From positions 1 to 49,022 of the forward strand of contig JAQXFO010000026.1 of the NCBI GenBank assembly GCA_029005135.1: a stretch of DNA of 49,022 nt, given 5' to 3'. The DNA is from Lachnospiraceae bacterium. GTDB lineage: Bacteria > Bacillota > Clostridia > Lachnospirales > Lachnospiraceae. Numbering within the stretch: position 1 is the first letter of the stretch; every line of letters begins with the position of its first letter. The notes beneath the pieces were generated by a model. It saw only the letters and a program-made list of their open reading frames with translations, did not search any database and was not told the DNA's origin. This document shows, one piece after another, positions 10,036 to 39,213 of the stretch. A program made the position numbers and the translations under genes.

Positions 10036-10056
10036 GCGGTTTATTATTCCACTGAA

Positions 10057-10096
10057 AACAAGGCCTTCCCTATGATCGCATGGGGAAGGCCTTGTT
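10057..10096. terminator. Shared terminator between nfo and the serpin gene
   Basis: Perfect 14-bp inverted repeat (10057-10070 with 10083-10096) between convergent genes. The T-tracts are short, so termination may be moderate. Confidence 0.72.
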
Positions 10097-10113
10097 CATG
10101 ACTGTCACGTTTA

Positions 10114-11562
10114 TCATGCGTCGATGTTTCTCACGACGCCGGCGAAGAGGACTGACCCGTCAAGGCCCGTGACCACAAAGAGGAACGGCCGATCCAACAC
10201 AAGATCGATCACCTCATCCGGCTCCGCGGCCCCTTCTGCCAGAGCCAGTTCGGTGTAGGCGGCCCCCGTCACGCCGTACTCATCGATCTCGATCATGGCG
10301 GCATGCTCGGCCTTGCTCAGATAGAGATTCTCCCGGTCCGCTGTCAGCGGTGTGAAATCGGACAGAGACGGATCCAGCGCATCCGTGACGCCGAGGGCCC
10401 GGACCGCTTCCAGAAGATCCGTTTTGCCGGAAACCTTAAACTTCGGCACCGTCAGATTGACTTCGGGAAATGACCATCGGCTGTCCGCACTGTCATACCG
10501 AAGGGCGCTCATGACGGCGGGGTCTGAGACGAGCTCATTCACATCGACACCTTCGTTCGGCAGGAAAAAATGCATGGCGCCGCTGTCACTGAGCCCCAGG
10601 CTCGTCGACAGGAATTTATCGGAGCGATAGACACTCATCATATCCGTTTTATGCATCATGGCTGCCGTGGTATCGCCGGCTGTCCCGTGGAAGACCTCCT
10701 GAGTCGTGTTTTCCTCCCGAAAATCCTCCCTCCACATGGCTTTGTAATAGATCGTGGACAGGATCTCCAGAACCGTATCGGGATCCAGTGCCATCGTTTT
10801 CGTATAATCACTCAGAAGCCCGCCGGTGTTGTCATCGGTCCATTTCCGCAGGGCCTCATTCATAGCCTCCGATCCCGGTGTCCCGCTGAAGGCTGAGGCA
10901 TAATAGTGATCGGCGAGATTTTTCAGTGTGTCTTCATGATAGGTCACATCGCTGCTGAGCCAGACGGAATTGGCCAGCAGGCTTTTCAGAACCGGGGTGT
11001 CCGCATAGTTGCTCTCCCAGAGGGCGGTCACCTGAGAGCGGAGTGTCCCGATATCGTCCGCGCCGAGCATAGCGAGGACCTGCTGACGCGTACGGCCGCC
11101 GGAGACCTCCGCCAGCATGGCAAAGGCGATGTAGGTATTCAGCGGCGAGCACACGGTGTTCTCCCGATCGGAGACCAGAAGCTGCGCCATCAAAGACAGG
11201 TTGTACGCCGTCATACCGGACTGAAGGCCTTCTGTCCCGGAGGCCTGATCATGATAGGCCTGCCACCATTGCCAGTGCTCATCACTTTCCATAAAGGCCT
11301 GAGCACTCAGCGTCTGAGCCACCGGTTCCGGGTAAGCCGCCCTGACGGTCGTGATGCCGGACATCGTTTTCACCGATGAGCCGGCTGCCTTTTGCCGCAT
11401 GGTCATGACGCCCCCTATCGTTCCAATGATGAGAGCCGCACAGGCGGCGACAGCCGCTGCGGCAGCCCATAAGGGTCTACGGCGTTTTCTGAAAAGACGT
11501 GCCTTATTGACACTGCCGGGATCAATATCTTCTATCGCTTCAAACAGCTCTTCCTTTCTCAT
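10114..11562 (-). CDS. Membrane-anchored serpin paired with an ECF sigma factor
   Basis: 482-residue protein. Residues 1-30 are a charged cytoplasmic stretch (EELFEAIEDID, RKRRRP), 31-54 a transmembrane helix, and about 115-482 a serpin domain outside the membrane. Serpin signs are NTVCSPLNTYIAFAML near 135 and the C-terminal signature LVLDRPFLFVV, which fits the PROSITE serpin pattern. The reactive loop (about 428-457) has hinge EYGVTGAAYT: mostly small residues, but Val at P14 and Tyr at P9, so inhibitory action is plausible, not certain. The loop is about four residues longer than in alpha-1-antitrypsin, so P1 cannot be fixed. The ATG overlaps the sigma factor stop, the place where an anti-sigma factor is usual. 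Confidence 0.9.
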   Translation of the reverse strand: MRKEELFEAIEDIDPGSVNKARLFRKRRRPLWAAAAAVAACAALIIGTIGGVMTMRQKAAGSSVKTMSGITTVRAAYPEPVAQTLSAQAFMESDEHWQWWQAYHDQASGTEGLQSGMTAYNLSLMAQLLVSDRENTVCSPLNTYIAFAMLAEVSGGRTRQQVLAMLGADDIGTLRSQVTALWESNYADTPVLKSLLANSVWLSSDVTYHEDTLKNLADHYYASAFSGTPGSEAMNEALRKWTDDNTGGLLSDYTKTMALDPDTVLEILSTIYYKAMWREDFREENTTQEVFHGTAGDTTAAMMHKTDMMSVYRSDKFLSTSLGLSDSGAMHFFLPNEGVDVNELVSDPAVMSALRYDSADSRWSFPEVNLTVPKFKVSGKTDLLEAVRALGVTDALDPSLSDFTPLTADRENLYLSKAEHAAMIEIDEYGVTGAAYTELALAEGAAEPDEVIDLVLDRPFLFVVTGLDGSVLFAGVVRNIDA

Positions 11563-12119
11563 ATATCAAACCCCCTTTCGATAAGATCGTCTTTCAGACG
11601 GTGCCGAAGGCGGCTGAGTATGACCGACACCTGATTCACGCTCATATTCATGCGCCCGGCGATCTGACTGATACTGTCTGCATACCAGTAACGCCGTATA
11701 AACAGGTACCGCCGGTCTTCGGGAAGGCGGAAAAGAAAACGGTTGATCTCCTCGATCAGGGCCTTTGCCTCCCATTGCCGTTCGGTATCGTCCGCCCCGG
11801 ACACACATTCCGCCAGCTCATCCAGCACGGCATCGAGCTGATGCCCTCCCCGTTTTTCCCGGTGGAGTTTTTTGTATCGGTCAAAGGAAAGATGTCTTGT
11901 GATTTTTCCGAGAAATGCGGCCAGAAGAGAGGGTCTGTGGGGCGGCATCGCGTTCCAGGCCCGCAGCCAGGTATCGTTGACACACTCTTCGGCATCCAGC
12001 CGATCGGACAGAATATTGCGGGCGATCGCCAGGCAATACGCGCCGTATTTCTGTGACGATGCCGTTATGGCTGCCTCATTTCTATCCCAATATAACTGAA
12101 CAATCCTGTCATCATCCAT
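11559..12119 (-). CDS. ECF-type RNA polymerase sigma factor
   Basis: 186-residue sigma-70-family factor. Region 2 is visible around SDRLDAEECVNDTWLRAWNAMPP and region 4 around LPEDRRYLFIRRYWYADSISQIAGRMNMSVNQVSVILSR; no region 1 or 3 is present. The start has GGAGG upstream. It is cotranscribed with, and overlaps by 4 nt, a membrane-anchored serpin whose short cytoplasmic N-terminus could bind and hold the sigma factor; this is inference. A possible autoregulated promoter lies at 12141-12172. Confidence 0.93.
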   Translation of the reverse strand: MDDDRIVQLYWDRNEAAITASSQKYGAYCLAIARNILSDRLDAEECVNDTWLRAWNAMPPHRPSLLAAFLGKITRHLSFDRYKKLHREKRGGHQLDAVLDELAECVSGADDTERQWEAKALIEEINRFLFRLPEDRRYLFIRRYWYADSISQIAGRMNMSVNQVSVILSRLRHRLKDDLIERGFDI

Positions 12120-12140: not shown

Positions 12141-12172
12141 CTATACACGCCGTTGAGGTGAAAATCTTACAG
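12141..12172 (-). promoter_or_regulatory. Candidate ECF-type promoter of the sigma-serpin pair
   Basis: Minus strand: TGTAAG (-35 like, 12172-12167), about 16 nt, then CGTGTATAG (-10 like, near 12149-12141). It lacks good housekeeping boxes. A CGT-containing -10 and an AA-containing -35 are common for ECF factors, which often control themselves. The call rests on pattern only. Confidence 0.38.
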
Positions 12173-12931: not shown

Positions 12932-13864
12932 TCAAAAACCGGCCCCGCTTTCTTCCGTTACCGTGCAGGCGGCGAGCAGCTGATATATCTTATCCCCGTC
13001 CGCCAGATCCTCCGAGAAGGCACTGGCCGTGCCGGCTGCCGCGGCCAGGCGGAACGCCTCCGCCTGCGAAAGGCCTTTTTCAAGACCGGCCAGAAAACCG
13101 GCCACCATCGCATCACCGGCCCCGACGGCATTGACGACCTTGCCCTGCGGTACCGATGCGCTGAAAACGCGGCCCTCTTCCGTCACCATAACAGCACCGT
13201 CGCCGCCCAGGGAAACGATCACGACGCGGGCGCCCATCGCCTGCAGGCGGCGGGCACCGACGGCCGCCGACGCCCGATCGGGCACAGGCATACCGAGAAG
13301 ACCGCTCAGTTCATCCCGGTTCGGCTTGATGAGAAAGGGGTGCAGCGGCAGCACCGCCGTCAGAAGATCCCCGGAGGCATCCACTGCCGTGCGGATGTCC
13401 CGGTCCGAAAGCCGCTCAAGGATCCGTCTGTAGATATCCGACGGCAGAGACGTGGGCACACTTCCCGCCAGCACCAGGCCGTCTCCGGCCTTCAGCGTCT
13501 CCAGAGAAGCCATAAGCGCCTCCGCCGCAGGCGGATCAACCGCCGGACCGCTGCCGTTGATCTCGGTGCTTTCGTAGTTTTTCAATTTCACATTGATGCG
13601 GGAGCAGCCATTTTCAAGGAAAATAAAATCCGTGCGGATGTCACAGGCCTCCAGATGGCGGCGGATCTCCTCGCCCACAAAACCTGCCAGAAAGCCCAGA
13701 GACGTCGAAGGACAGCCCAGGCTGCCCAGGACCCGCGACACATTGATGCCTTTACCGCCGGGCAGGAGCCGTTCCTCCCGGGTGCGATTCGTCCGCCCCA
13801 GGGTAAAATTCTCGACCGTCACATAATAATCCAGCGACGGATTCAAGGTCACCGTATAGATCAT
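12932..13864 (-). CDS. PfkB-family sugar-phosphate kinase, 1-phosphofructokinase type
   Basis: 310-residue PfkB kinase. Substrate and nucleotide motifs are PGGKGINVSRVL near residue 35, KPNRDEL in the middle, and GAGDAMVAGFLAG with the catalytic Asp near 250. The start MIYTVTLNPSLDYYV is the hallmark of the FruK/LacC branch, so the substrate is fructose 1-phosphate or tagatose 6-phosphate. No fructose PTS gene is nearby, so I give no symbol. Its ATG overlaps the stop of the upstream lipoprotein gene by 4 nt, an odd partnership for a glycolytic kinase. Confidence 0.88.
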   Translation of the reverse strand: MIYTVTLNPSLDYYVTVENFTLGRTNRTREERLLPGGKGINVSRVLGSLGCPSTSLGFLAGFVGEEIRRHLEACDIRTDFIFLENGCSRINVKLKNYESTEINGSGPAVDPPAAEALMASLETLKAGDGLVLAGSVPTSLPSDIYRRILERLSDRDIRTAVDASGDLLTAVLPLHPFLIKPNRDELSGLLGMPVPDRASAAVGARRLQAMGARVVIVSLGGDGAVMVTEEGRVFSASVPQGKVVNAVGAGDAMVAGFLAGLEKGLSQAEAFRLAAAAGTASAFSEDLADGDKIYQLLAACTVTEESGAGF

Positions 13865-14853
13865 GATGCCATGGCCTCAAGGACAACGGCGGCCGAATCC
13901 GTGATCTCGCAGTGACCGCTGAGGTCCTGATAGATCCTCACCAGAGCCAGGTGCGTGTAAGGCTCCGCCGTCAGGGTCGTCACGCGGCACAGCAGACTGT
14001 AATTGAGGCCGCTGACCACCTGCGTGGCCAGACAGGCCACCGGTTCATACTCGACACGGGACACACCGGCAGAAGCGGCACTGAGAACGCGACGGTAATC
14101 AAGACCGGTGTAGACGGTCCCGCCGATATAGGCGGCATTGCCGCTGGCGTCACCCGCATAGGCCGCATTGCCGCTGGCGTCGCCCGCATAGGCCGCGTTG
14201 CCGCTGGCGTCACCCGCATAGGCCGCGTTGCCGCTGGCGTCGCCCGCATAGGCCGCGTTGCCGCTGGCGTCACCCGCATAGGCCGCATTGCCGCTGGCGT
14301 CACCCGCATAGGCCGCGTTGCCGCTGGCATCGCCGCCGGTACCGACCGAAAGATCCGTATCCAGCTGCCAGCTGCCTGCTGCGGCGCCGGTATCGATACC
14401 GTAGGTGCCCTCTTCCGCCGCCGGATCCAGATACACGAGGCTGTCCAGCGTCACGGAACCGCCGTCATTCTGGGTCAGGAACATCACGCCGTAGCGGGAC
14501 TCCGTCTCGATGCTGTCAGGCGTGACCTTGACAAGAACGGCATTTTTCTCACCGGCATTGCCGCTAAAGCCCAGATGAGCCATCGGCGTCACACTCTCCG
14601 GCATACCGGAAGCGGCCTCAACGGTCATCTCGATGATCCCGTCCGACATGGTCCGGGGCTCCGTATCGTAGAAGGTCCAGCCGCCGGAAAGGCTTTCGAA
14701 TCCGCTGCTCTCCTCCGACTCCTGCACGCTTTCCTCCGCGGAAGAGACCGGGTTTTCCGCAGCGCTGCTGCCGGTACCGGCGCCGCAGCCGCTTATCATA
14801 AGACTGACAGCCGTCATCACGGCCGCTGCCATGGTTGTTCTTTTTTTCATCAT
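13861..14853 (-). CDS. Lipoprotein with decapeptide repeats and a cystatin-like motif
   Basis: 330-residue secreted lipoprotein. The signal peptide ends in lipobox ISGC (Cys23) and is followed by a Ser/Glu-rich linker. Residues about 55-165 begin GGWTFYD and form one domain. Residues about 173-241 are seven tandem copies of GDASGNAAYA. The C-terminal part (about 245-330) contains QVVSG (278-282) followed by LNYSLLCRV and later IYQDLSG, the layout of the cystatin QxVxG inhibitory loop and its next strand. Similar cystatin-like hypothetical proteins occur in gut Clostridia, to my memory. It overlaps the sugar kinase start by 4 nt. Protease inhibition is inferred. Confidence 0.75.
   Translation of the reverse strand: MMKKRTTMAAAVMTAVSLMISGCGAGTGSSAAENPVSSAEESVQESEESSGFESLSGGWTFYDTEPRTMSDGIIEMTVEAASGMPESVTPMAHLGFSGNAGEKNAVLVKVTPDSIETESRYGVMFLTQNDGGSVTLDSLVYLDPAAEEGTYGIDTGAAAGSWQLDTDLSVGTGGDASGNAAYAGDASGNAAYAGDASGNAAYAGDASGNAAYAGDASGNAAYAGDASGNAAYAGDASGNAAYIGGTVYTGLDYRRVLSAASAGVSRVEYEPVACLATQVVSGLNYSLLCRVTTLTAEPYTHLALVRIYQDLSGHCEITDSAAVVLEAMAS
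14131..14337. repeat. Tandem 30-bp repeat array, seven copies, in the lipoprotein gene
   Basis: Six complete 30-bp units (14131-14310) and a seventh that diverges after about 27 nt encode GDASGNAAYA on the minus strand. The six units differ by A/G exchanges at two main positions, AAC/AAT and GGT/GGC codons, all silent. The array is in frame, so copy-number change would keep the gene open. Confidence 0.97.
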
Positions 14854-38118: not shown

Positions 38119-39213
38119 ATGTCACACTTTACGCGAAAGCTCATCCTTGAGGACGGCAGCGTATACCCCGGCTTCGCCTTCGGCAGTCCGGCCGACCGGG
38201 TCTGTGAGGTCGTCTTCAACACTTCCATGACGGGTTACCAGGAGATCATCTCCGACCCCTCCTATACCGATCAGATGATCGTCATGACCTATCCGATGAT
38301 CGGCAATTACGGCATTACCGATGAGGATTTCGAGAGCGGCGCCATTCACGCCGGCGGTCTCATCGTCCGCGACTACAACAACTCCCCGTCGAATTTCCGT
38401 TATACACAGACGCTGTCGGAGCTTCTGACAGAACATGACGTTCCCGGCATCTGCGGGATCGACACCCGGGCCCTTACCCGCCGCATCCGCGACAAGGGCG
38501 CCTGCCGGGCTCTTCTGACTTCCTATGATACCTCCGTCGAAGACGGCCTCGCCGCCATCGCCGCCGCCCCCATTCCCCGCGACGCGGTCTCCCGCGTGAC
38601 CTCCCGCAAGATTCGCTATTCCCGTACCGCCAACCCCCGCTTTAATGTCGTCGCCGTCGACTGCGGCATCAAGACCAATATCATCCGCTGCCTCAATGCC
38701 GTCGGCTGCAACGTGACCGTGGTGCCCTATGACATCACCGCCGAACAGGTACTGGCTTTGAATCCCGATGGCGTCTTCCTGTCCAACGGACCGGGGAATC
38801 CGGAGGATGCCGGGCCTGTCATCGAGCTGGTTCGCCGCATTCGCGGCCGCCTGCCCCTCTTCGGCATCTGCCTCGGACATCAGATCATCGCCCTGGCACT
38901 GGGCGGCCGGACCTACAAGCTCAAATTCGGCCATCACGGCGGCAATCATCCCGTCAAAAACCGGCTGACAGGCCGTATCGAGATGACCTCCCAGAACCAT
39001 AACTACGCCGTCGACGAAGCCAGCCTGGCGCAGACACCGCTCAAAGTGACACATCTCAATCTCCTTGACAATACCGTGGAGGGTGCCGCCTGCCCGGAGG
39101 AACACATTTTCAGCGTGCAGTACCATCCCGAAAGTGCACCGGGTCCTCAGGACAGCCGTTATCTCTTCGATCAGTTCACCGCCATGATGCAGGAGGTTAA
39201 AGATCATGCCTAA
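38119..39213 (+). CDS. carA: Carbamoyl-phosphate synthase small subunit
   Basis: Glutaminase subunit that delivers ammonia to CarB for arginine and pyrimidine synthesis. The N-terminal domain (1-150, EDGSVYPGFAFG, VVFNTSMTGYQE) is followed by the class I amidotransferase domain with Cys251 in FGICLGHQ and the His/Glu of VQYHPES near the C-terminus. 364 residues is typical. AAAGGAGAG precedes the ATG. It overlaps carB by 8 nt. Confidence 0.97.
   Translation: MSHFTRKLILEDGSVYPGFAFGSPADRVCEVVFNTSMTGYQEIISDPSYTDQMIVMTYPMIGNYGITDEDFESGAIHAGGLIVRDYNNSPSNFRYTQTLSELLTEHDVPGICGIDTRALTRRIRDKGACRALLTSYDTSVEDGLAAIAAAPIPRDAVSRVTSRKIRYSRTANPRFNVVAVDCGIKTNIIRCLNAVGCNVTVVPYDITAEQVLALNPDGVFLSNGPGNPEDAGPVIELVRRIRGRLPLFGICLGHQIIALALGGRTYKLKFGHHGGNHPVKNRLTGRIEMTSQNHNYAVDEASLAQTPLKVTHLNLLDNTVEGAACPEEHIFSVQYHPESAPGPQDSRYLFDQFTAMMQEVKDHA

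Follow-up and report, generated by a model that had tools for sequence, protein, structure and literature searches.

A membrane-anchored serpin proposed as the outer domain of an anti-sigma factor paired with an ECF sigma factor in Lachnospiraceae

The anti-sigma factor RsiV of Bacillus subtilis and Clostridioides difficile is described as binding lysozyme and being cut at two sites, which frees sigmaV (PMC6066255, PMC9044953). Among bacterial serpins, the siropins of gut bacteria are reported to act on human neutrophil proteases (PMC5127057), and serpin expression in Bifidobacterium breve is described as protease-inducible via a two-component system (PMC8012564). Here we analyze a sigma-serpin gene pair in a 49,022-nucleotide stretch of a Lachnospiraceae genome, hereafter termed the window. 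With moderate confidence, we propose that this serpin spans the membrane and acts as anti-sigma factor to the ECF sigma factor transcribed with it, and that trapping of a protease would trigger release of the sigma factor and transcription of its own operon.

Layout and recurrence of the sigma-serpin pair

The window encodes on its minus strand an ECF sigma factor of 186 aa (11559..12119; ORF list, Pfam, and AlphaFold2 model), followed by a single-pass membrane serpin of 482 aa, the proposed anti-sigma factor (10114..11562, minus strand; ORF, Pfam, and AlphaFold2). Both open reading frames are as claimed by an earlier sequence-only reading, including the ATGA overlap of the sigma stop and serpin start (11559..11562, minus strand), and Pfam agrees with both assignments. 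The sigma factor consists of sigma2 and sigma4 only, with Sigma70_r2 and Sigma70_r4_2 both over the Pfam cut-offs, and its fold matches in structural comparison are SigW, SigE, SigK, and CnrH. The pair looks like a closed two-gene unit, since an ECF-type promoter of the form TGTAAGA-N15-CGTGTATA, predicted by motif matching to be autoregulatory, lies just 5' (12142..12171, minus strand), and a strong terminator-like hairpin lies just 3' (10056..10097, minus strand; -30.3 kcal/mol, z -5.9, equalled by none of the shuffles); the hairpin was missed by a simple terminator scan and revealed by folding. Elsewhere in the window, a lipoprotein-like ORF without Pfam match (13861-14853, minus strand) carries GDASGNAAYA decapeptide repeats and contains a 30-bp tandem repeat of 6.7 copies (14128-14328).

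Serpins are present in 105 of 299 genomes of the host family, and the only one matched in the host genome is that of the operon. Among the 150 strongest family matches, which were those listed and include the window, a sigma gene immediately precedes the serpin gene in 23. The tail and membrane helix are present in 22 of them; the remaining one (locus L070) is a secreted-type serpin behind a sigma gene. Classification by simple pattern assigned 148 of the listed family serpins to 90 lipoproteins, 22 linked proteins, and 36 others. The nearest serpin loci in named genomes, taken as the best 80 of 520 relatives, comprise 60 sigma-linked, 18 unlinked, and two cut loci; many records of these genomes give rumen, cecum, or other gut samples as their origin, and strains with a linked pair include Pseudoflavonifractor phocaeensis An507, Flavonifractor sp. 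An112 and AGMB03687, and Cuneatibacter sp. NSJ-177. The two sets partly overlap and contain 79 linked serpins once repeats are removed. Sigma-serpin adjacency is thus conserved across genera, as the sequence-only reading had led one to expect. Counting against the anti-sigma reading are the 18 unlinked loci among the nearest 80, the majority of the 150 family serpins that likewise lack an adjacent sigma gene, and the failure to find a serpin in a second searched genome from the host's genus.

When 148 serpin domains were placed on a quick tree, sigma linkage required 19 changes of state, compared with a mean of 20.8 for shuffled labels (48 of 500 shuffles were as low). Well-supported branches alone demand at least nine of these changes, so that serpins must often have gained or lost the sigma link. 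A more distant sigma factor (E-value weaker than 1e-40) occurs in seven of 86 serpin-linked pairs. Five of these (L210, L212, L222, L238, and L256) share a tail of another type, resembling RYKKANEGIHAPEEL, and lie behind another kind of ECF sigma factor (28-33% over 58 aa), and the serpin on this kind of tail is, judging by sequence, a separate recruitment. A second serpin gene follows in six linked loci; 900 nt of downstream sequence were available for 58 of the 86 pairs. At one locus (L070 and L071) the sigma gene is followed by a secreted-type serpin and then by a tail-bearing one, which probably represents a single operon for two serpins, one anchored and one released.

The tail and its outer domains

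The serpin starts with a charged tail of about 30 residues and a single hydrophobic helix, in agreement with the sequence-only reading; hydropathy places the helix at residues 31-49 and AlphaFold2 at residues 32-55, and we annotate it as a transmembrane helix at residues 31-54 (11401..11472, minus strand). Basic residues ahead of the helix suggest that the N-terminus is cytosolic. The gene therefore has the layout of a membrane anti-sigma factor, being located directly behind the sigma gene and encoding an N-in tail and one membrane helix. The predicted sigma-binding tail proper spans residues 1-22 (11497..11562, minus strand), as indicated by conservation over 218 pairs and by coevolution.

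All collected loci together contain 255 distinct sigma ORFs, with a few near-repeats from overlapping loci remaining, of which 246 have a downstream ORF, three are cut, and five have none. An exact 4-nt overlap is shared by 189 of the 246 partners, so that the ATGA overlap in the window is not a chance feature, and 240 have a membrane helix within the first 140 residues. Serpin domains are found in 86 of the 246, a share inflated by the use of serpins as bait. The tail is kept across genera, and its commonest residues in 218 pairs are M-K-x-E-x-L-x-x-A-I-G-x-I-D-[DE]-x-x-I-x-E-A, then basic residues.

Similar tails bear a variety of other outer domains. Among 90 of the 132 complete non-serpin partners, Pfam matched DUF4179 (eight proteins), DUF3298 (two), Big_14 (two), and single cases of a beta-propeller, DUF4349, DUF5643, and YukC, and NCBIfam matched RsiV in two. 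One partner (L289) combines a tail of the serpin kind with an RsiV-like outer domain (E-value 3e-60, 203.9 bits, under the curated cut-off of 250); a search for RsiV-like tails and domains with short motifs had returned none, whereas the NCBIfam profiles did find RsiV. The host genome itself encodes a second sigma/tail pair with a 335-aa partner (L372), whose outer domain is matched by neither Pfam nor NCBIfam at E 0.001. An apparent natural sigma/anti-sigma fusion (L359) was rejected, because a frame slip in the sigma gene carries its reading frame on into the partner. In the window serpin, we found no match to the RsiV, DUF4179, DUF3298, or RsgI N-terminal domain profiles at E 0.1, and no Pfam match at all, including to class I anti-sigma domains, within residues 1-118; the NCBIfam CU044_5270 family (residues 3-66, E 0.0011, 18.9 bits) and "antisigma" model (residues 25-75, E 0.023, 14.7 bits) scored far under their 100-bit cut-offs. 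The sequence-only reading had placed a serpin coupled to the sigma factor in place of an anti-sigma factor. The link stands, but the wording does not: because like tails bear other outer domains, the serpin is, by sequence, better described as supplying an anti-sigma factor with its outer domain.

Coupling between tail and sigma factor was analyzed in 218 of the 246 pairs (sigma E-value below 1e-40, gene offset -25 to 60, membrane helix present, sigma length 165-235), and an interface is predicted by coevolution, in line with the earlier expectation. The top DCA pair, sigma I141 and tail I13, scores 3.01 (z 13.8), whereas the largest score in 20 shuffled pairings was 1.20. All top 12 pairs involve tail residues 1-22, which make up 22 of the 52 columns, and the top 40 are distributed among the tail (29), membrane helix (seven), and linker (four), the best membrane-helix pair scoring 0.94 (z 4.3). 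The top couplings connect tail residues 7-21 mainly with sigma4 helices. On the AlphaFold2 model, the top-12 sigma residues 121, 126, 130, 137, 138, 141, and 142 are located in the helices at sigma residues 112-131 and 134-144, the main predicted tail-binding face; residues 147 and 153 are at or in the next sigma4 helix, and A68 and F79 in a sigma2 helix. Class I anti-sigma domains and the first CnrY helix are described as likewise binding sigma4 (PMC7406223). By MI-APC, the top 20 pairs include 19 from the tail, one from the linker, and none from the membrane helix, and the observed value of 0.364 exceeds the largest value (0.239) in 30 rounds of a null in which tails were swapped between nearest sigma relatives.

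The couplings also transfer to held-out serpin pairs. When trained on 142 non-serpin pairs (six of them truncated) and asked to rank all serpin tails for a given sigma factor, they put the cognate tail at percentile 0.79, compared with at most 0.60 in 1000 permutations, whereas membrane-helix couplings in the same test give percentiles of 0.46 and 0.51. Less favorable are the percentile of 0.69 obtained against tails of sigma factors 50-90% identical (56 pairs), the 76 serpin pairs alone, a set too thin, whose top 20 comprise nine membrane-helix, eight tail, and three linker pairs, and the low confidence with which AlphaFold2 modelled the serpin tail. Coupling of the serpin to the sigma factor through a predicted sigma-binding tail is well supported at the sequence level. 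The occurrence of serpins of this clade as predicted lipoproteins without an adjacent sigma gene could suggest that the protein is an inhibitor anchored in the membrane and has nothing but the operon in common with the sigma factor. We consider this highly improbable, given the excess of tail-sigma coevolution over the swap null, its transfer to the held-out serpin pairs, and the repeated joining of serpins to sigma/tail units.

Promoter and predicted output

The promoter model was built from upstream DNA only. Of 211 upstream regions, 119 contain the motif at more than 11 bits, compared with a mean of 4 for mononucleotide shuffles over two rounds, an excess somewhat flattered by the fact that the model was fitted on the sequences it scores; among serpin-linked upstream regions, 50 of 78 exceed 9 bits. 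The second sigma gene of the host has a motif of 5.8 bits only. In the host genome, the sole match with zero or one mismatch is the operon's own, and there is one further match with two mismatches, the backward control also giving two. The two-mismatch match, which falls within the window (38401-38430), is likely due to chance, because the whole-genome control gives as many. Eight of 14 genomes have exactly one match with zero or one mismatch, each located 23-53 nt upstream of the sigma gene. A search for a wider regulon in the 14 genomes with up to two mismatches gave 41 matches vs 55 in the backward control, hence no excess beyond the operon promoter, although the strict motif misses some operon promoters (e.g., in G118) and absence is therefore weak evidence.

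The promoter motif is thus in place and kept in relatives, as expected for autoregulation. The finding of near-exact promoter matches only at the operon itself, together with the second serpin genes downstream, suggests that the main output of the sigma factor is more sigma factor and more serpin, and the single near-exact copy in the host genome suggests a self-contained loop that would replace spent inhibitor.

In another explanation, the tail is a true anti-sigma module but the serpin senses nothing: it is cargo, brought to the surface as a shield once the sigma factor responds to some other signal, for instance stress on the envelope or on secretion. The bearing of other outer domains by like tails, the self-promoter that makes the serpin an output, and the second serpin gene in some operons are all consistent with it. 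On the other hand, a protein serving purely as a shield would have no need to bind the sigma factor through its own tail, and the tail of the same kind in L289 bears a domain resembling the outer domain of RsiV, which is described as a receptor (PMC6066255). We regard the shield explanation as unlikely, though the most serious competitor of the receptor reading.

Serpin hinge, proposed circuit, and known systems

The outer part of the protein has the serpin fold, as claimed from the sequence. The Serpin profile (PF00079) matches with an E-value of 2e-58 (198.8 bits vs a cut-off of 27) over profile positions 5-369 of 370, corresponding to residues 119-479 (10126..11208, minus strand). The confident fold starts earlier, near residue 70: the AlphaFold2 model has block pLDDT values of 82-96 over residues 71-430, falling under 50 at loop residues 435-447, and native tengpin aligns with the window serpin from residue 66, ahead of the serpin body, which defines a segment before the Pfam domain (residues 66-117; 11212..11367, minus strand). 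The hinge and reactive centre loop were assigned by loop parsing to residues 430-456 (10195..10275, minus strand).

Inhibitory serpins have small residues at P12-P10 and a Thr/Ser-like residue at P14. Hinges were counted in 81 parsed loops out of 82 sigma-linked serpins. P12 is Ala or Gly and P10 is Ala, Ser, or Thr in all 81, P8 is Thr in 70, and the loop length is 26 in 54; P14 is Val in 52, Cys in 17, and Thr in four, and P9 is aromatic in 76. The hinge is thus largely permissive and mostly fits protease trapping. Counting against this are the Val or Cys in place of Thr/Ser at P14 in most loops, odd hinges in at least four sigma-linked members (L111, L122, L139, and L144) and a finer structural ranking in which the AlphaFold2 model is closest to loop-cleaved serpins. 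Hormone-binding serpins are non-inhibitory, ligand-binding conformational switches, and a similar role for the present serpin domain could be argued from the Val or Cys at P14 in 69 of 81 loops, the aromatic P9, the odd hinges, and the presence of corticosteroid-binding globulin among the top fold matches. We nevertheless consider such a switch improbable: the small residues at P12 and P10, the Thr at P8, and the common loop length speak for inhibition, and the 18 unlinked near relatives have the same hinge as the sigma-linked serpins, so that it did not arise with the sigma link.

Based on these observations, we propose the following mechanism. An amphipathic N-terminal helix of the serpin, at about residues 5-21, would grip the sigma factor, chiefly at helices one and two of sigma4, while the outer serpin part would act as the protease-trapping receptor. 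Protease attack on the reactive loop would consume the serpin, either by loop insertion or in a covalent complex, and the spent protein would be dismantled by regulated proteolysis; the host genome encodes one M50 (site-2 family) protease, as do all 14 control genomes. The freed sigma factor would then transcribe its own operon, yielding more sigma factor and more serpin. Because serpins are single-use, the sigma factor released by a spent serpin would order that serpin's replacement. The sensing step is plausible, and we infer, as the sequence-only reading did, that an encounter with a protease frees the sigma factor.

More tentatively, the pair may form a self-replenishing suicide-inhibitor circuit in which the serpin combines the roles of sensor and anti-sigma factor and is also the main product, every protease that it traps costing one anti-sigma molecule and ordering a replacement. 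Plug-in outer domains on such tails may then let gut Clostridia sense host enzymes such as lysozyme and proteases in a modular way, through binding or inhibition. If so, the self-replenishing promoter would control little else, and outer domains would have been plugged repeatedly onto a short sigma4-binding tail. The receptor reading, if true, would provide gut bacteria with a one-protein route from protease contact to gene expression; it offers a testable reason for the abundance of serpins among gut Clostridia. The short-tailed anti-sigma factors also seem to form a large family, for the most part without annotation, whose outer domains can be exchanged.

Among the open-licence papers listed, judged partly by title, none showed a serpin serving an anti-sigma factor in this way, and the main text of a serpin-superfamily phylogeny (PMC8233489) contains neither "sigma" nor "operon". 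The siropins, the Bifidobacterium serpin, and tengpin share the serpin fold, and native tengpin likewise aligns ahead of the serpin body; however, none of them is described, in the available portions of their sources, as tied to an anti-sigma tail. In the class II anti-sigma domain of CnrY (CnrY/CnrH), two helices wrap sigma4 and sigma2; our couplings fall mostly on sigma4, with A68 and F79 of sigma2 also in the top 12, and no second, sigma2-binding helix is evident in them. The RsgI/sigmaI systems of cellulolytic clostridia are described as using a common anti-sigma module on which the outer sensor domain can be exchanged (PMC3413522), as here; however, RsgI senses polysaccharide, whereas the window protein is a protease inhibitor without an RsgI match. 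In RsiV/sigmaV, the anti-sigma factor is described as crossing the membrane once and binding lysozyme, an enzyme of host defence, with its outer domain, which leads to regulated proteolysis and sigma release (PMC6066255, PMC9044953), and an RsiV-like outer domain occurs on a serpin-kind tail in L289. Unlike RsiV, the outer domain here is a serpin, its expected ligand a protease, and the inhibitor single-use, so that capture of a protease would take the place of lysozyme binding. We therefore place the sigma-serpin pair with receptor-type anti-sigma factors such as RsiV, the serpin outer domain being the new part.
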